Positions 29,946-36,831 of a stretch of DNA of 41,177 nucleotides are shown piece by piece. Position 1 is the first letter of the stretch, and each line of letters begins with the position of its first letter. The stretch is from positions 1 through 41,177 of the forward strand of contig JAFAZF010000049.1 of NCBI GenBank assembly GCA_019239915.1, written 5' to 3'. Made by a program: the position numbers and the translations under genes. Source of the stretch: Sphingomonadaceae bacterium (lineage in GTDB: Bacteria > Pseudomonadota > Alphaproteobacteria > Sphingomonadales > Sphingomonadaceae). The notes under the pieces are model-generated. The model was given only the letters and a program-made list of their open reading frames with translations, was not told where the DNA came from and ran no database searches.

Positions 29946-30116
29946 TATTTGATCTGCGGTCCCTGGATCGTTTGGTGCGACGTCGCGGCCGCCGCACCAT
30001 CGCGGTGTGCGGAAATCTGCGAAACGCATCCAAGGTTTGACTGGTCATCCGCGGCGCGCCCTGCCACTGATCCCGGCGAACGGGCGTCGGGCGATCGCCG
30101 GGAGGAGGACAGACGC

Positions 30117-31615
30117 ATGACCGAGGTGCGCAGGCTTCCGGATGCGCTCAAGGTACGCGCCCAGCATCAGCTCGACGAGATCGCCCATGACGACGGCCGC
30201 CGCATGATCAGCTTTGCCGACTGGGATCGCGAGGCCGACGCGCTGGGCGGGGGGCTGGCCGCGCGAGGCTTGCGGCCCGGCGACCGCGTGCTGCTGCCGA
30301 TCAGCAACGCCAACGCCTTCGACATGCTGGTCGCGGTGCAGGGCGTACTGCGCGCCGGCGGCATCGCCTGCCCAGTCAATCCGCGCCTGATGCCGGACGA
30401 GATGGCCTTCTATGCTCGCCTGACCGAGCCGGCGATGACGATCACCGACATTCCCGAGCGGATGGCGGTGGCCGGCGCCGGCACGATCTTCGCGGTCGAC
30501 GCCGTGCCGAACGATCCCGGCGCGCTGCCGGACCAGAGCGCACTCGATCCGAAAGCAGATGCGATCATCCTGCAGACCTCCGGCACCACCGGCGGCAAGC
30601 TCAAAGGCGTCGTCATCGCGCACCCGGACGCGCTCGGCGACAGCGACGGGATCAGCCGCCAGCCCTCGAAATCGATGGCGCACGCGCTGCCGCTGACCGG
30701 CTCGGGCGGCGCGATGGCGGCAGGCCTGCTGCCGATCAAGACCGGCGCGACCTGCTACACGATGCGCAAGTTCGATCCGGAGGGCTTCCTCCGCCTGATG
30801 GTCGAAAAGAAGCCGGACACCGTCTTCCTGGTACCCGCTATGTTGCGCCTGATCCTCGATCTGCCGAACGTGCGCGATTTCGATCTTTCGGGAACCAAAT
30901 GGCTGATCACGGGATCGGCGCCGCTGCCGCATGATTCGGTGATGCGCTCGATCGATTTGTGGCCGCGCATCCGCATGCGCAACAGCTATGCCATGTCCGA
31001 GGGGGGCGCCGCACTCACCACGACGACACGCGAGCATCTCTTGAAACCCGGCTGCGTCGGCAAGATGATGACTCGCTCGAGTTGCGCGACGAGGCGGGCA
31101 ATGTCGTGCCGCAAGGCCAGACCGGCGAGGTCTACGGCCGCCAGGGCAAGCCGCGGCGCTACTGGCGCGACGAGAGCGCGAGCAGCGCCTCGTTTGTCGG
31201 CGGATGGACCCGATCCGGCGACCTCGGTTATGTGGATGCCGACGGAGACCTCATCCTGTGCGGTCGCTCCAAGGAGCTGATCATCCGCGGCGGCTACAAT
31301 ATCGCGCCGCTGGATATCGAGACGGTGCTGCACGACCATCCGGCGGTGAAGGACGCGGCCGTGGTCGGCGTCGCGCACGAGGTCCTCGGCGAGGATGTCG
31401 CCGCCGCCGTGACGCTGCTGAGCAGCGCGCAGGCGACGCCCGACGAGCTGCAGGCCTGGTGCCGCGAGCGTCTCGCCGACAACAAGGTGCCGCGCACGAT
31501 CCTGATCCTCGACACGCTGCCGCTCAACGCCAACGGCAAGTTCCTCAAGCGCGAGCTCAAGCCGCTACTCGAGAAAGCCGCAGCCGCGCGCAGGGCGATG
31601 GCAGCGGCGCGCTGA
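30117..31615 (+). pseudogene. FadD-type acyl-CoA synthetase, single-base frameshift
   Basis: An ANL-superfamily acid:CoA ligase (about 499 aa) that activates a carboxylic acid as acyl-AMP then acyl-CoA. GGGAGGAGG precedes the ATG at 30117. The phosphate-binding loop LQTSGTTGGKLKG, NSYAMSEGG (A5-like), then after the shift SGDLGYVDADGDL, RSKELIIRGGYNI and the catalytic Lys in NANGKFLKREL are all present. The frame breaks after 31070, where GACTCG stands for an expected GGACTCG; adding one G gives VGKMMDSLELRDEAGN, the normal family length. The C-terminal part is then read to 31615. Probably a functional gene misread. The SnoaL-like gene follows after 26 bases. Confidence 0.88.
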
Positions 31616-31641: not shown

Positions 31642-32067
31642 ATGATGCAGGTCGAGGACTATATTCACATCCAGGCGCTGGTGGCCCGCTACAGTGACGC
31701 CGCCAACCGGCAGGACCCGGTCGCAATGGCGGCCGTCTATGCGCCGCACGGCCGCCTGATCGCGTTCGGCAACGAGCCCTATGTCGGGCGCGAGAAGATC
31801 CAGGAGATCTTTCAGGGCTCGATGGGCCGGGTCGAATATCTCACGCAGATCTGCGCCGCCGGCATCATCGACATCCAGGGCGATTGGGCGACGGGACGCT
31901 GGACGGTCACCGAATTCGCCAAGCATAAGGACGGCGACAAGCTGACCTATTTCCAGGGCAGCTACGAGGACGTCATGGTCCGCACCCCCGAGGGCTGGCT
32001 GTTTGAGCAACGCATCCTCAAACGCACCGCGCAGGCGCGCTTCGAGGCTGCACTGCGGGCCTCCTGA
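31642..32067 (+). CDS. SnoaL-like / NTF2-fold protein
   Basis: A 141-aa alpha+beta-barrel protein of the SnoaL/NTF2 superfamily, which includes isomerases, dehydratases and ring-hydroxylase beta subunits. The opening IHIQALVARYSDAANRQD with an internal Tyr/Asp pair and the AVYAPHGRLIAFG strand match SnoaL_4. The barrel ends with TYFQGSYEDVMVRTPEGWLF. GGAGAG precedes the tandem ATGs. It follows the acyl-CoA synthetase by 26 bases and is probably co-transcribed, so an isomerase or hydratase role on the CoA ester is plausible; the sequence does not decide it. Confidence 0.88.
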   Translation: MMQVEDYIHIQALVARYSDAANRQDPVAMAAVYAPHGRLIAFGNEPYVGREKIQEIFQGSMGRVEYLTQICAAGIIDIQGDWATGRWTVTEFAKHKDGDKLTYFQGSYEDVMVRTPEGWLFEQRILKRTAQARFEAALRAS

Positions 32068-32090
32068 TATTCGGGGAATGTCAGCCGCGC

Positions 32091-32245
32091 TCAGAAGCGT
32101 TCGCCGACCATCTCCTCGCTGATCGTCCAGAGCCGCTTCGCCCGCTCGGCATCGAGCGCATAGCGGCGCACGCCGTTGCGCTCCTGAGACTGGTTGTCGA
32201 CCACCTCGGCAACGTGACAATCCTCGCAATACAGACCGCCGACCT
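32091..32245 (-). pseudogene. 3' fragment of the SDR split by IS630
   Basis: Reading the minus strand from 32245, the frame KVGGLYCEDCHVAEVVDNQS continues to RLWTISEEMVGERF and TGA (32093-32091). This is the C-terminal tail of oxidoreductases of the retinol-dehydrogenase/WWOX-like SDR group. Its first half is at 35274-36087. Joining 35274 to 32245 keeps the frame (APADKVGG) and yields 322 aa. Confidence 0.9.
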
Positions 32246-32335
32246 TATACCAATGCGCGCTGAGGCTGACTCACGTCCGGGATTCACAGGCTGCTGAAAA
32301 TCTGATTCGACGTTGCAGGCACATGGAGGCTTGCG

Positions 32336-32898
32336 ATGGCGGCAGCGGTTGACGTTCGATCCGACTACACATCGGCGGATTTGCGTCGCTGCGCGCGACG
32401 AAGTGGTGATGCTGATCAGGTCCGGCGTCTGTTGGCGGTGGCGCTGATACTGGACGGTGGGAGCCGGGGCGAAGCGGCGAAAGTTGCCGGCGTGACGCTG
32501 CAGATCGTGCGCGACTGGGTCTTGCGGTTCAACGCGAGCGGTCCCGATGGTCTGGCGACACGAAAGGCGCCGGAGCGGGCCTCGATCCTGAATGAGGAGC
32601 AGCGCGCCCGGCTTGCGGCGGTTGTCGAGGCGGGACCGATCCCTGCAGCGCATGGCGTGGTGCGCTGGCGGCTCGCCGATCTGGCGCAGTGGATCTGGGA
32701 TGAGTTCGCGCTCTCCGTCACGCGCCACACCCTCGGGCGCGAGCTTCGCGCGATGGGCTATCGCAAGCTCTCGGCGCGGCCCCGCCATCATGGCCAGAAG
32801 CCTGATGACATTGTCGATTTTAAAAAAGCTTCGCCGCCCGTCTGGCGCAGATCAAGAGGCGGCTACCGAGAGGAACGCCGATAGAGCTGTGGTGGCAG
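32336..32898 (+). pseudogene. IS630 transposase, N-terminal part
   Basis: The N-terminal DNA-binding half: a helix-turn-helix region (EAAKVAGVTLQIVRDWVLRF), then the second HTH (DLAQWIWDEFALSVTRHTLG). At 32822-32827 a run of six A followed by G changes frame: in the -1 frame the sequence goes on as SFAARLAQIKRRLPRGTPIE to LWWQ (32898), so the natural element probably uses -1 slippage there. The gene is then cut by the IS110-family insertion exactly before the first catalytic Asp (DEARVG), which resumes at 34760. Confidence 0.87.
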
Positions 32899-32956
32899 AT
32901 GCTATGAGGACGGACACAGGATGGGCTGAACGACTGACCGGCTGACGCCGGTAGGA

Positions 32957-33376
32957 TCATGCGGAGGGGCTGAAGCCTTCCTTGTGGGTGTGTCGGTCGA
33001 GATAACGCATGGTGATATCGTCGGTGATGTTGCCGGACGTCGTCGAGAAGTAGCCCCTCTGCCAGAAGCGTTGGCCCCAGTAGCGCTTGCGGATATGCTC
33101 GAACTCCTGCTGGATTTTGCGTGATGATCGGCCTTTGGCGCGGCGCACGAAGTCACTGACGGAGATCGACGGTGGGATCTCGACGAACATGTGGACGTGG
33201 TCGCTCGACAATGCGCCATTGATGATCGTGACGCCCATTTCGGCGCATACCTGCCGGATGATCTCGCGAACACGCAGGCGGACCTCGCCGCGCAGCACCT
33301 TGAAACGATATTTCGGCGCCCAGACGAGATGGTAGCGATGGTGGAATGTCGTGTGACAGCCGGTCGAATACCCCAT
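32957..33376 (-). CDS. tnpA: IS200/IS605-type TnpA, Y1 HUH transposase
   Basis: A 139-aa single-strand transposase. It has the HUH pair in SSDHVHMFVEI (His62 and His64 approximately) and the catalytic Tyr in QRGYFSTTSGN near residue 111, with FHHRYHLVWAPKYR at the N-terminus, all canonical. The gene is intact, unlike the two elements around it, so it is the youngest layer of the nest. Its start codon lies at the base of a perfect 29-bp hairpin in the leader, which would restrain translation or block read-through transcription. Confidence 0.93.
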   Translation of the reverse strand: MGYSTGCHTTFHHRYHLVWAPKYRFKVLRGEVRLRVREIIRQVCAEMGVTIINGALSSDHVHMFVEIPPSISVSDFVRRAKGRSSRKIQQEFEHIRKRYWGQRFWQRGYFSTTSGNITDDITMRYLDRHTHKEGFSPSA

Positions 33377-33447
33377 AGCCTGTATCCTCGGGAAAAGTGA
33401 GACTTATCGCCTACGGCGGTCTCACTTTTCCCGAGGATACAGGCTAT
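33375..33447 (-). repeat. Perfect 29-bp inverted repeat at the tnpA start
   Basis: Bases 33375-33403 are the exact reverse complement of 33419-33447; the 15-base loop contains a further CGCC/GGCG stem. The proximal arm includes two bases of the tnpA start codon. In IS200 a 5' leader hairpin is known to block read-through transcription and ribosome access; this one is unusually long and perfect. Confidence 0.85.
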
Positions 33448-33557
33448 CGGCCGAGTCCCAGGCTGAAGCCGGCATCCGACTGAAGTCGGAGGGGTTTCTC
33501 CTTACCGAGGACTCTAAAGTCTATCCTGTTGTGGTCCTCGAGCAAGGGAGCCGCATC

Positions 33558-34475
33558 ATGTCATTCCAGAGCAATATCATCCTTGTCGCCCTCGAACTGA
33601 GCAATTCAGTGTGGCTCGTCGGCACGCGTTTGCCCGGGGCGCAGAAAAGCCGAATGCACCGCGTCACAGCGGGCGACACGGCCAATTTGCTGACGCATCT
33701 AAGCAAGCTGCAAGCCAGCCATCAGGCAATGTCGAAGGGTGCTGCGCCTACCGAGTGCCGACGCCGGACGAGGAGGACGGTAAACGTAATTCACCGTGAA
33801 CGTGAGTATCTCGTGCAGGAACGAACGCGAATAGAGAACCGGATATTGGCGCTACTCGCAACCCAAGGCATCCGCTCACGGCCGTCATTGCGAAACTGGG
33901 AACGAGATCTCGCATCGCTCGAGACCGGCGACGGTCGCAAGCTTCCGCCTTGCCTGGCCGCCGAGGTACATCGGCTGCGGCTGCGCCTTGGCCTGGTGCT
34001 CGATCTCATCCGTGAGTTGGACGCGCAACGGAATGAGATTTTGGTGTCCGCTCCAGACGACGCGATCACATCCAAGGTCACTGCGCTGCGGACGATATAC
34101 GGCGTCGGCGACAATTTTGCCGCCGTTCTGGCGCGTGAGGTTTTCTACCGCCCGTTCGGAAATCGAAAGCAGCTCGCGAGCTATGTCGGCTTGGCACCCA
34201 TGCCCCATCAGAGTGGCGAAATGGATCGGGACCGGCGTATCGGTCGCGCGGGCAATGCGCGAGCACGCAAAACGCTCGTTCAGTTGGCGTGACTTTGGCT
34301 GCGGTATCAGCCTGAAAGCGAACTCGCCGCTTGGTTCCGCGAGCGCGTTGGCACCCTCCAAGGCCGAACCCGCCGGATCGCAATTGTCGCGATGGCGCGC
34401 AAGCTACCGATAGCGCTCTGGCGTTTTACAGAAACGGGAGAGATCCCCGCCGGAAGTAAGCTCAGAGCGGTATAG
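33558..34475 (+). pseudogene. IS110-family transposase, internally deleted with a stop
   Basis: From ATG 33558 (AAGGGAG upstream) it reads NIILVALELSNSVWLVGTRL, the IS110 N-terminus, but the central RuvC-like DEDD domain is largely deleted: after HLSKLQAS the sequence jumps to a frameshifted remnant RVPTPDEEDGKR and then HREREYLVQERTRIENRILA. The C-terminal Tnp_20 domain (IYGVGDNFAAVLAREVFYRP, YVGLAPMPHQSG) is kept, with TGA at 34290-34292 where Trp is expected, then LWLRYQPESELAAWF to TAG 34473-34475. About 80-90 residues are missing, so it is inactive. Confidence 0.88.
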
Positions 34476-34511
34476 GGATCGCCACCGGGTCACCGGCGGC
34501 GAAGCGAGGAG

Positions 34512-34627
34512 CACGACCGTCTTCGTCAATGGTAAAGCCAGACTGCCGCGTGGCAGGTTGGTCGTGTTCGATCGGGGCCTTGCCTCGTGCATGAGGCATT
34601 ATGGTTGCGGGTTCCACGCCGAACCCG
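34512..34627 (+). ncRNA. Candidate IS110 bridge-RNA region (structured 3' end)
   Basis: The 284-base stretch after the transposase (34476-34759) has no gene but three stem-loops. CACGACC (34512-34518) pairs with GGTCGTG (34560-34566) around an internal loop and an inner CTGCC/GGCAG hairpin; TGCCTC pairs with GAGGCA (34581-34598); CGGGTTC pairs with GAACCCG (34608-34627). IS1111-type IS110 elements encode their target- and donor-guiding bridge RNA in this 3' position. Guide loops have not been matched to the ends. Confidence 0.4.
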
Positions 34628-34759
34628 ACCGCATGTAAGGTTACGCAGCAAAAGCTGCCGCACACTGCCGCCCCAACTCGCTTGCAGGTCAACAAATGCA
34701 GGAGATCGACGTGATGAGCGCCGCGTCGCCGTAACTTGACATTCGAACCCTCATGTAAG

Positions 34760-35256
34760 GACGAGGCCCGTGTCGGCCAGCAGACCAAGCTCACCCGGCG
34801 TTGGGCCAAGCGTGGCACCCGCCCTTCGGCACCCAAGGATCAACGCCGCTCCTCAGCATGGCTCTTCGGTGCAATCTGCCCCGCTGAAGGCAAGGCCGCC
34901 GGCATCGTCATGCCCAATGCACCAGCGAGGCGATGGGCATGCATCTCGAGGAGATCGCCTTCCACGTCGCGCCAGGCGCACATGCCGTCCTGCTGCTCGA
35001 TCAGGCCGGATGGCACGGATCAGCCGAGCTGGTCGTGCCGCCCAACATCACCCTAATGCCGCTGCCGCCGAGATGCCCGGAACTCAACCCCGTCGAGAAC
35101 CTGTGGCAGTTCATGCGCGACAACTGGCTGTCGAACCGCATCTTCACATCCTACGACGACATCGTCGACCATTGCTGCTTCGCCTGGAACGCGCTCGTCG
35201 ATCAACCATGGCGCATCATGTCCATCGGACTCCGACAGTGGGCTCATGGGTTCTGA
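34760..35256 (+). pseudogene. IS630 transposase, C-terminal catalytic part
   Basis: Resumes at the first catalytic Asp (DEARVGQQTKLTRRWAKRGT), then GAICPAEGKAAGIVMP. The frame slips at about 34916 (one A missing in CCCAA) and continues with SEAMGMHLEEIAFHVAPGAH, VLLLDQAGWH (second Asp), LPPRCPELNPVENLWQFMRD (catalytic Glu in NPVEN) to AHGF and TGA 35254-35256, close to the right terminal repeat. With the N-terminal part at 32336-32898 it makes one full-length IS630 transposase of about 350 aa. Confidence 0.88.
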
Positions 35257-35273
35257 TCAATGCGCCTTGGTAT

Positions 35274-36087
35274 TATCGGCCGGCGCCAAGACGGCCGCCC
35301 AGACCGTGGTCGCCGCACCCTGCTCCAGCGTCTTGTAGCGATACGGCGCGCGGCCGGCTTCCTCCTCGCGCCTCGACATGTCGGCGACGAACTTGGCGAG
35401 GCGCTCGGTCGTCTCGGGCGTTCGATAGCGGCCGAGTTCGGTCTGGATACCGCCGGGGTGCAACGATGTCGCGCGCACGCCCCTGTCGCGATGACGGCGA
35501 TCGAACTCCACGCCGAAGAGGATGTTCGCGGTCTTGGCATAGCCGTAGGCCGCCATCGAATCGTAGGGTGTGCGTTCGAAGTTCGGATCGTCGAGATCGA
35601 TATCCGAGAAACGGTGGCCCGAAGAGGATAGGATCACCAGCCGCCCGCCCGGCCTGATCAGGCTCGCGATGCGGTTTGCGAACAGGAAATGGCCGAGATG
35701 GTTCACGCCGAACTGCGTCTCGAAGCCGTCCTGCGTCACGCCATAGGGCGTGGTCATCACGCCGGCATTGTTGATCACGACGTCGAACGGCCGCCCGTCG
35801 CGCAGCAGATCGTCGGTCGCGGCGCGGACGCTGGCGAGCGAGGCGAGATCCATCGCCCGCACCTCGAAACTGCCATCGCCTTCCCTCGCCGCCGCTGCGA
35901 CGCCGGCAGTCGCACGCGCAGTCTTATCGAGATCGCGCGCCAGGCCGACGACATCGGCGCCGTGCGCGATCAGCGCGCGCGCCGTCTCGACGCCGAGCCC
36001 CGCCGAGACGCCGGTGATCAGGATGCGCTTTCCCTGGAGGTCGACGCCTTCCAGCACATCCTCAGTCGTGGATTTGTTACTGAACAT
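35274..36087 (-). pseudogene. 5' part of the SDR split by IS630
   Basis: From ATG 36087 (GGAGACAG upstream) this encodes the first 271 residues of an SDR of the retinol-dehydrogenase/WWOX-like group. TGVSAGLG is the cofactor motif, VINNAGVM follows, and Ser (SSSGHRFSD), Tyr and Lys (AAYGYAKTANILF) are catalytic. At 35275-35274 the frame meets the IS630 right end and, uncorrected, stops four codons later. The remaining 51 codons are at 32245-32091. The ATG overlaps the cupin stop (TGATG), so it was translated from the DUF1330-cupin-SDR operon. A truncated product might be made but lacks the C-terminal substrate-loop region. Confidence 0.92.
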
Positions 36088-36530
36088 CACTGTCTCCGTT
36101 CATGCGGGGGCAGGCCGAACGCCACGCCGACTAGAGTGCAGCCCTGCGGCCCGGCGCTCCAGCTATGCTCGAGGCCCGGTATCAGCACGCAGTCGCCGGT
36201 CCTGAGAAGTGCTTCGCCATCCTCGGTGCCGACCGTTACCTCGCTCGCCACCACCACCTGATAATCGAGCGTGCTGGTGTGCTGCAGCTCGCCGCGCTCA
36301 CCAGCAGGAAGCGAAAAGCTCACCCATCGCGCGCCGCCGGGGGCGACCGCCAAATCGGTGAAGCGCGCGTCGACCGCCCGGCGCGGAACATCCAGCTCCG
36401 GCGGGCTCGCGACGGTCTCGGCGAGGATGTTGACCGCGAGCGTGGGCGTCACCGGCGCGGGATCGGCACTGCGCTCCTCGGCAATGGTGGAGCGGCCTTC
36501 CCCGTTCACTCCGATGCGATAGATTTTCAT
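36087..36530 (-). CDS. Cupin-domain protein
   Basis: A 147-aa small-barrel protein. The cupin motifs are partly visible: WVSFSLPAGERGELQHTSTLDYQVVV corresponds to motif 1 (one His and a Tyr/Asp instead of the full metal set) and LRTGDCVLIPGLEHSWSAGP to motif 2 with its His. A metal-binding isomerase, dioxygenase or sensor role is possible, but the reduced ligand set leaves this open. Its ATG overlaps the stop of the corrected DUF1330 frame and its stop overlaps the SDR start, so the three genes are translationally coupled. Confidence 0.85.
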   Translation of the reverse strand: MKIYRIGVNGEGRSTIAEERSADPAPVTPTLAVNILAETVASPPELDVPRRAVDARFTDLAVAPGGARWVSFSLPAGERGELQHTSTLDYQVVVASEVTVGTEDGEALLRTGDCVLIPGLEHSWSAGPQGCTLVGVAFGLPPHERRQ

Positions 36531-36831
36531 GCCGGCCCCCCTCCGTACAGCCCTCGAAGATCAGGAAGGTGAAGTCGGCGCCTTTCTCGCGATGCGCCCT
36601 GGCGACCCGATAGGCCTCGCTGTGATACCAGGCCTTGGCTTCCTCGAACGAAGGGTATTCGGCGAGGATCACAGCCTCGGCAGGCGGTCCCTCGACGACC
36701 TCGCAGCGCCCGCCGAGCGCGAGAAAACGCCGTTCCGCCGGACCCGGCACATCCGCTGCCTTCTCGATGTAGCGTGCCATCTCCGTCTCGTCGAAGACGC
36801 GATGGCGGATCGCCAGGATATAGGCGACCAT
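36527..36831 (-). pseudogene. DUF1330 protein, frameshifted at the C-terminus
   Basis: A dimeric ferredoxin-like alpha+beta-barrel protein of about 101 aa. ERRFLALGGRCEVVEGPPAE, then LAEYPSFEEAKAWYHSEAYR and the terminal FTFLIFEG are the family blocks. At 36551-36553 three G (minus strand) stand where four are expected; with one more, the protein ends LYGGGPA with a TGA that overlaps the cupin ATG. As written, the frame runs on 80 residues through the cupin gene, which is implausible. GGAGGGGAGGGG precedes the ATG. Biochemical function is unknown; it is common in degradation operons. Confidence 0.82.

Follow-up and report, generated by a model that had tools for sequence, protein, structure and literature searches.

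Introduction

ISPpu9 is an insertion sequence (IS) of the IS110 family. According to PMC8450116 it is located in REP sequences (extragenic palindromes), and passages of PMC11208160 and PMC11187229 describe how IS110-family elements move: an RNA, called bridge RNA or seekRNA, pairs with target and donor DNA, and the recombinase inserts the circular element. In IS1111 elements, the guide for the top strand lies 5' of the guide for the bottom strand (passages of PMC11187229). Targeting of other mobile DNA by IS110-family elements is already known, the targets being Tn21-family ends, REP sequences, and possibly IS256 or IS5. Here, we analyze an IS110-family element in a 41,177-nucleotide (nt) stretch of Sphingomonadaceae DNA (contig JAFAZF010000049.1, assembly GCA_019239915.1; hereafter the window), where it carries an IS200-type element and interrupts an IS630-family element that splits an SDR oxidoreductase gene. 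The nest is real and ordinary; its interest lies in the IS110 clade that it exposes. We consider it highly probable that the window element is a decayed member of an RNA-guided clade that targets the W-W/F-Q / D-E codons of IS630 transposase genes, and that this clade is small, rare, sporadic, alphaproteobacterial, and specialized on genes of this family.

Results

A recurrent insertion site in IS630 transposase genes

The IS110 element and its immediate host have the following limits.

32897-34757 (+): IS110-family element (IS1111-like), decayed; core AG inside the W-W-Q / D-E-A-R codons; assigned from empty-site relatives, junctions, and Pfam Transposase_20
32248-35273 (+): IS630-family element, interrupted; ends TACCAA and (reverse complement) ATACCAA; uninterrupted relatives L007 and L009
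32336-32898 (+): IS630 transposase left arm; Pfam HTH domains; carries a probable -1 frameshift run
34760-35256 (+): IS630 transposase right arm; Pfam DDE_3; begins at the Asp codon of DEARVG

An uninterrupted IS630 relative in genome G022 aligned to 32249-32898 and 34758-35273 as adjoining blocks with 2 nt in common, and insert-free relatives in genomes G022, G065, and G001 and on plasmids had AG at the junction of the empty IS110 site. We assigned the repeated AG to the left end of the element by the published convention of 7 bp plus 3 bp; the limits given in an initial annotation made from the sequence alone (32899-34759) are equal to ours apart from this repeat, and its division of the IS630 transposase between LWWQ (to 32898) and DEARVG (from 34760) was right. 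In an uninterrupted IS630 copy, the DDE_3 match begins four residues ahead of the D of DEAR, which we take from family knowledge to be the first catalytic Asp of the DDE domain, and insertion therefore splits the gene just ahead of this residue. W-W-Q, W-F-Q, W-F-E, or W-W-A precedes DEAR in 14 uninterrupted copies.

Of 14 distinct loci in which at least one end of the IS110 element survives, 12 had the same junction, at W-[W/F]-Q / D-E codons of an IS630 transposase. These loci were collected with the IS110 part only, with a related IS110 protein, with that element plus 13-16 nt of flank, and with the noncoding region only. IS630 sequence stood at both junctions in the window, in Novosphingobium sp. 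B1 (L035), in Aminobacter sp. SR38 (L042), on two plasmids of Rhizobium sp. B230/85 (L039 and L040), and in L078, which came from an order-level search around a Rhizobium (Rhizobiales) and has an open IS110 frame. L036 and L073 showed the junction at the left end alone; L041, L043, L079 (from Roseomonas gilardii), and loci of the decayed L075/L077 type showed it at the right end alone. In the count, L075 also stands for L077 and for three unfetched records with the same match, and L043 (T1473) for an unfetched T1470 record; L038 and L076, fragments without an end, were left out. The right side of the junction read D-E-A-R in most loci; L041 and L075 are without one G there. The initial annotation had treated the position of the IS110 element as incidental, a reading not borne out by this recurrent, guide-matched site.

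Members of the clade were scarce. A class-level search found the element in 1 of 385 genomes, the window's own, and an order-level search in 1 of 377; some of these searches scored only 2-5 candidates per genome, so misses are likely. No viral contig carried the noncoding motif. The right arm of the window IS630 matched 295 of 72,556 plasmid records, interrupted copies included.

A predicted guide RNA in the right end

Four features were predicted in the noncoding region 3' of the transposase gene (tnp).

34505-34660 (+): predicted bridge RNA / seekRNA, right-end noncoding region; 11-sequence consensus fold
34520-34527 (+): candidate top-strand guide TCTTCGTC; pairing partner GACGAGG on the right side of the core, with one G-U
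34550-34557 (+): candidate bottom-strand guide GTGGCAGG; same letters as the left target, core included
34630-34640 (+): candidate donor guide CGCATGTAAGG; resembles the element's own right end CTCATGTAAGG

The region was alignable across 11 elements, and the consensus fold placed both target guides in one internal loop between an outer and an inner stem. Both sides were changed in 6 of the 26 pairs of this 11-sequence fold, the covariation term was small (-1.07), and single-RNA fold energies were modest (z -1.6 and -2.2). The bottom guide ends in the core AG, and in 9 of 12 elements it read exactly as the left flank of the same element: GTGGCAG in the window, L035, and L042; GTTTCAG in L039 and L040; AAAAAAG in L093; GAAAAAG in L094; TAAAAAG in L095; and GCCAAAG in L097. 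Matches were partial in L078 and L096 (6/7 each) and L092 (4/7). A third version, GTTCCAG, occurred in L041, L043, and L075, which have lost their left flanks; the uninterrupted copy most closely related to the L041 host has TGGTTCGAA, a sequence that GTTCCAG does not match.

Across the 12 elements, the bottom guide agreed with the target at 79 of 84 positions (permuted mean 48.4), a score reached in 0 of 200,000 permutations. Without four cousins whose ends were set by eye, agreement was 55/56 (mean 37.4; 180 of 200,000 permutations as high, p about 0.001), and for five less redundant elements 3346 of 200,000 permutations were as high. For the top guide, with G-U allowed and altered and by-eye rows removed, the score was 61/70 (mean 53.0; 680 of 100,000, p about 0.007). 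For the 12-element bottom-guide score, the guide words of L092 and L097 were shifted one base from the automatic register to end in AG, that of L095 was read by eye after the automatic pattern missed it, and the left ends of L095, L096, and L097 and the right ends of L092 and L095-L097 were set by eye. In 9 of 10 elements, the exception being L095, the last 7-8 letters of the donor segment are shared with the right end of the same element, a match that is partly circular because the right ends just listed were recognized by eye.

The cousins in this comparison lie at other sites. The two Microvirga elements (L093 and L094; 53-54% at the amino acid level) are 90% identical to each other, and at L093 2200-4800 and L094 2200-5045 they interrupt two different IS630-type genes at A-run lysine codons; assignment of these host genes as IS630-type is less secure, given identities of 25-35% and E values of 1e-7 to 1e-9. 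The length of the A-run differs in guide and target alike (A6G and A5G). L092, L095, L096, and L097 are cousins on Skermanella, Bradyrhizobium, Ancylobacter, and Roseomonas plasmids, and their A-rich left flanks resemble their own guides.

Proposed mechanism

In the mechanism we propose, one segment of the right-end RNA would be complementary to the top strand and another to the bottom strand of the W-W/F-Q / D-E codons, with the GTGGCAG and GTTTCAG guides fitting the codons TGG-TGG-CAG and TGG-TTT-CAG beside them. The recombinase would then put the circular element into the AG core, which would break the IS630 transposase in two and disable it. Both the production of the RNA and its role in directing insertion we infer from the published mechanism of the family. 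Because the target residues are presumably needed for IS630 catalysis, the site would recur in many IS630 copies and change only within limits, and the target may have been selected because it can hardly change. In the window, the IS630 copy inside the SDR gene would have received an IS110 element, whose left end would later have taken in a single-strand IS200 element.

Independence of the insertions and rival explanations

A shared site could also be inherited, from one ancient insertion of IS110 into IS630 that spread and diverged as a composite. IS630 flanks accompany the element in most copies, the hosts of the window and L035 elements are similar (86-89%), and such a composite could move in trans. 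The two copies in Rhizobium sp. B230/85 are hard to reconcile with this history: their IS110 elements are identical at 1460 of 1462 nt (99.9%), and their host IS630 copies agree at only 53 of 70 and 361 of 440 nt (76-82%). Host and IS110 divergence in fact disagree in both directions, as the window and L042 share 82.3% of IS110 but only 62.6% of the host right arm, and the similar hosts of the window and L035 carry IS110 copies that are 79.7% identical. We placed 21 host right arms in a tree, 7 of them interrupted and 14 not, and excluded L043 as too short. The 7 interrupted copies required 6 changes, at least 5 of them forced by well-supported branches, and the L035 host grouped with an uninterrupted copy (support 95/92). 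A single origin of the interruption appeared in 0 of 200 bootstrap trees, although 9 of 18 inner branches were poorly supported and L042 and L079 formed long branches of unsure place. By these sequence comparisons the insertions into IS630 copies are independent; the single-origin composite, which we rejected on the Rhizobium pair, the divergence mismatch, and the host tree, is largely refuted and in our judgment very improbable.

IS nests are common in IS-rich DNA, this one is real, and most of its transposases are dead, all of which would suit the view of the initial annotation, an ordinary pile-up of insertions in one gene that is informative mainly as a record of local insertions and free of special targeting. 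Against it stands the recurrence of one codon junction in 12 of 14 loci; by contrast, tblastn with a single IS630 subfamily as query and E values to 1e-4 found no IS630 match in the examined flanks of 15 more distant IS110 loci (42-47% amino acid identity; L045-L053, L056, L059, L060, and L067-L069). A pile-up still fairly describes two of the layers, IS630-in-SDR and IS200, but is refuted for the IS110 layer, for which we give it almost no credence. If targeting is real, it might still be set by protein or DNA features of the IS630 site, the guide match being a by-product. The short guide match taken alone and the behavior of the top guide within the IS630-site group, both detailed below, favor such a by-product; cousins with other left flanks nevertheless have guides that match those flanks at the homologous place, and the mechanism of the family is RNA-guided (passages of PMC11187229 and PMC11208160). 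We regard this explanation as quite unlikely.

Several observations weigh against an RNA-guided clade specialized on this site. Two of the 14 loci, L034 (right end) and L037 (left end), have only 6-9 target nt (GACGAA or TGGTTTCAG) and then unrelated DNA; L079 reads D-E-S-R on the right side, and L042 reads GCC-GAA-GCC, with GCC for the Asp codon. The L078 guide is one base off its target. Compared with dinucleotide shuffles, the presence of a match of guide length somewhere in the noncoding region carries no significance by itself: the longest bottom-guide match was equaled in 24-42 of 500 shuffles for five copies and in 422 of 500 for L078, and the longest top-guide match in 123-498 of 500. 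Within the IS630-site group, the bottom guide covaried weakly with the target (6 elements, p 0.05), and the top guide showed no covariation among 8 elements (62,314 of 100,000 permutations as high). Most of the guide-target covariation comes from the Microvirga pair and other cousins, and the permutation tests ignore relatedness. Finally, the subterminal repeats are about 6 bp, with 6-7 of 12 positions matching in the window, L035, L039, and L078, where the IS1111 norm is 11-13 bp and near perfect; we therefore call the element IS1111-like and not a strict IS1111 member. By sequence, guide match and covariation hold across the wider group, and covariation is weak or absent inside the IS630-site group.

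Classification and decay of the window element

Other properties agree with the assignment as IS1111-like. Both DEDD_Tnp_IS110 and Transposase_20, which define the IS110 family broadly, were detected in L039, L078, and L094. A long noncoding region follows tnp on its 3' side, about 280 nt in the window and aligned in relatives; the sequence has 7 bp on the left (AGATGCT) before ATGAGG and 3 bp on the right (GTA) after CTCAT; and the top guide lies 5' of the bottom guide, in the same order across the alignment. The window copy itself has decayed.

33558-34475 (+): IS110 tnp remnant; ~205-nt internal deletion, frame change, TGA at 34290

Transposase_20 was the only domain found in this remnant, the DEDD domain no longer being detected, and because of this loss and the ~205-nt deletion the window copy can hardly act.

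Possible escape from the guides

A search for the target pattern in 11 genomes or records, comprising clade members and the Microvirga cousins, turned up 2 sites without an insert, and the resident guide matched neither of them exactly. A plasmid of Rhizobium sp. T1473 has 34 IS630 places; among the seven read (L109, L114, L118, L122, and L131-L133), five had W-W-A ahead of DEAR, one had CAA-GAT, and one was interrupted by IS110. These data on escape of IS630 from IS110 guides are suggestive only. A guide-RNA arms race is a tentative extension that we think rather doubtful: guides would follow synonymous and conservative changes in the catalytic codons; some IS630 lineages with W-W-A, W-F-E, W-Y-Q, or CAA-GAT instead of the matched codons, including one amplified on a Rhizobium plasmid, would be out of reach; IS110 would brake the spread of IS630; and relatives would aim at a different IS630 motif, the A-run lysine codons.

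The surrounding nest

The remaining features of the nest are as follows.

32926-33513 (-): intact IS200-type element, ends from other copies; TTTAG target on the minus strand at 33514-33518
32957-33376 (-): IS200 tnpA; 139 amino acids; Pfam Y1_Tnp E 1.7e-41; NCBIfam transpos_IS200 E 4.2e-43
33372-33450: inverted repeat at the tnpA start and immediately upstream of it; arms of 32 nt, 97%
32246-32247 and 35274-35275: left and right copies of the TA target duplication, assigned from sequence
35274-36087 (-): SDR oxidoreductase gene, 5' part; 271 codons ahead of the insert; Pfam adh_short E 9.4e-23
32091-32245 (-): SDR gene, 3' part; terminates ...MVGERF stop; joined product gapless against an intact paralogue

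The four levels proposed in the initial annotation (SDR, IS630, IS110, and IS200) and their junctions hold, as does its statement that the IS200 tnpA is the only intact transposase in the nest. Its chronology stands for the host and guest order IS630, IS110, IS200; nesting does not date the insertion into the SDR gene, which an IS630 copy already carrying IS110 could have entered later as one unit, mobilized in trans.

The Y1 HUH transposase, ends common to other copies, and the lack of a target duplication place the innermost element with IS200 (IS200/IS605). A second copy on contig G000:C61 is 97.6% identical, copies in other genomes share the ends of the window element, and the spacing obtained with TTTAG as a pre-existing target equals that of the left end of the IS200-free L035. 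The inverted repeat at 33372-33450 includes GAGG, which may be the ribosome-binding site of tnpA, and the C61 copy matches inversely there. Rfam gave no match at gathering score across 32000-36200; five of its six sub-threshold matches were on the IS200 hairpin.

The IS630 assignment follows from an HTH plus DDE_3 transposase and the TA target copies, and NCBIfam IS630 matched both transposase pieces, each under the whole-protein cut-off. In the left arm, the frame changes at an A-run (TTTTAAAAAAG, 32818-32828). Of 14 uninterrupted copies, all but L012, which has 4 A, keep an A-run of 5 or more at the frame change (13 of 14). Six annotated genes have the 1061-nt span that a -1 shift would require. 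We rejected decay as the cause, since the A-run is common to uninterrupted relatives, and its retention there makes programmed -1 frameshifting probable. A second frameshift lies in the right arm near 34915.

That IS630 split the SDR gene, and that its halves rejoin, was confirmed. Spliced, 32091-32245 and 35274-36087 give 969 bp in frame, or 322 residues plus stop; unspliced, the protein stops five residues beyond the insert junction. The spliced protein aligned to the paralogue at G000:C67:4728-5693 over 322 of 322 residues, with no gaps and 78% identity, and in 10 of 10 fetched homologous loci (E up to 1e-100) the protein continues through the join, with VGGxxCExC spanning it and GE(R/K)F at the end. 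The homologue search matched 8 of 118 genomes at E 1e-100. The adh_short domain and the full-length homologues of the joined protein identify an SDR oxidoreductase; the best NCBIfam match of the 5' part was PRK06196 (E 4.4e-80), under its cut-off (269 of 414 bits). The SDR is truncated, but the conclusion of the initial annotation that the DUF1330-cupin-SDR operon lost its terminal enzyme is too strong because the same genome has two full-length paralogues, the one above and one at G000:C81:3850-4779 (62%).

At 36087-36831 (-), a DUF1330 frame continues 233 nt into the next gene, which had been annotated as a cupin and had no Pfam or NCBIfam match at E 0.001. At 29949-31615 (+), one gene, presumably AMP-dependent ligase-like, occupies two overlapping frames (29949-31280 and 30959-31615), as if frameshifted near 31040 by pseudogene decay or sequencing error.

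Discussion

Among the literature searched, the catalytic codons of IS630 transposases appear to be a new target for IS110 elements. Among the matches listed, titles and abstract openings, with ISfinder and most subscription papers outside their scope, contained no report of IS110 elements targeting IS630; IS630 is absent from the main texts of PMC11187229 and PMC11208160; and passages of PMC11578231, PMC6053426, and PMC10214660 name no IS630 target for IS110. If our reading is right, RNA-guided insertion has a new class of target, the hardly changeable coding heart of a rival mobile element. With a natural series of guides and target codons, and with both occupied and empty IS630 sites, one could test how guides evolve, how far mismatches are tolerated, and how IS copy number is controlled. 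The locus also cautions against taking every IS nest for a random pile-up. Inteins and self-splicing introns inserted at conserved active-site codons likewise occupy targets that the host gene cannot easily change; they splice out and spare the host protein, and nothing in the window clade suggests splicing.

The closest described systems share parts of this arrangement. IS621 and other IS110 elements in REP resemble the window clade in a DEDD recombinase, two strand-specific guide segments, and a repeated genomic target (passages of PMC11208160); their target is an extragenic palindrome, whereas that of the window clade is transposase coding sequence, and in the IS110 group that includes IS621 the bridge RNA lies mostly in the left end, not the right. 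ISEc11, ISPa11, and ISKpn4, IS1111 elements with tested seekRNAs, share the noncoding region 3' of tnp, the guide order, and the 7- and 3-bp extensions (passages of PMC11187229), but they have other targets, and the published repeat norm of 11-13 bp contrasts with the shorter repeats of the window clade (about 6 bp). In arrays of Paracoccus yeei, the IS110-family ISPye46 occurs with other insertion sequences, and the authors leave open a preference for IS256 or IS5; these host families differ from IS630, and passages of PMC11578231 contain no guide analysis. Finally, IS4321 and IS5075 of the IS1111 group target the noncoding end of a transposon, whereas the window clade targets the coding catalytic motif of a transposase gene.

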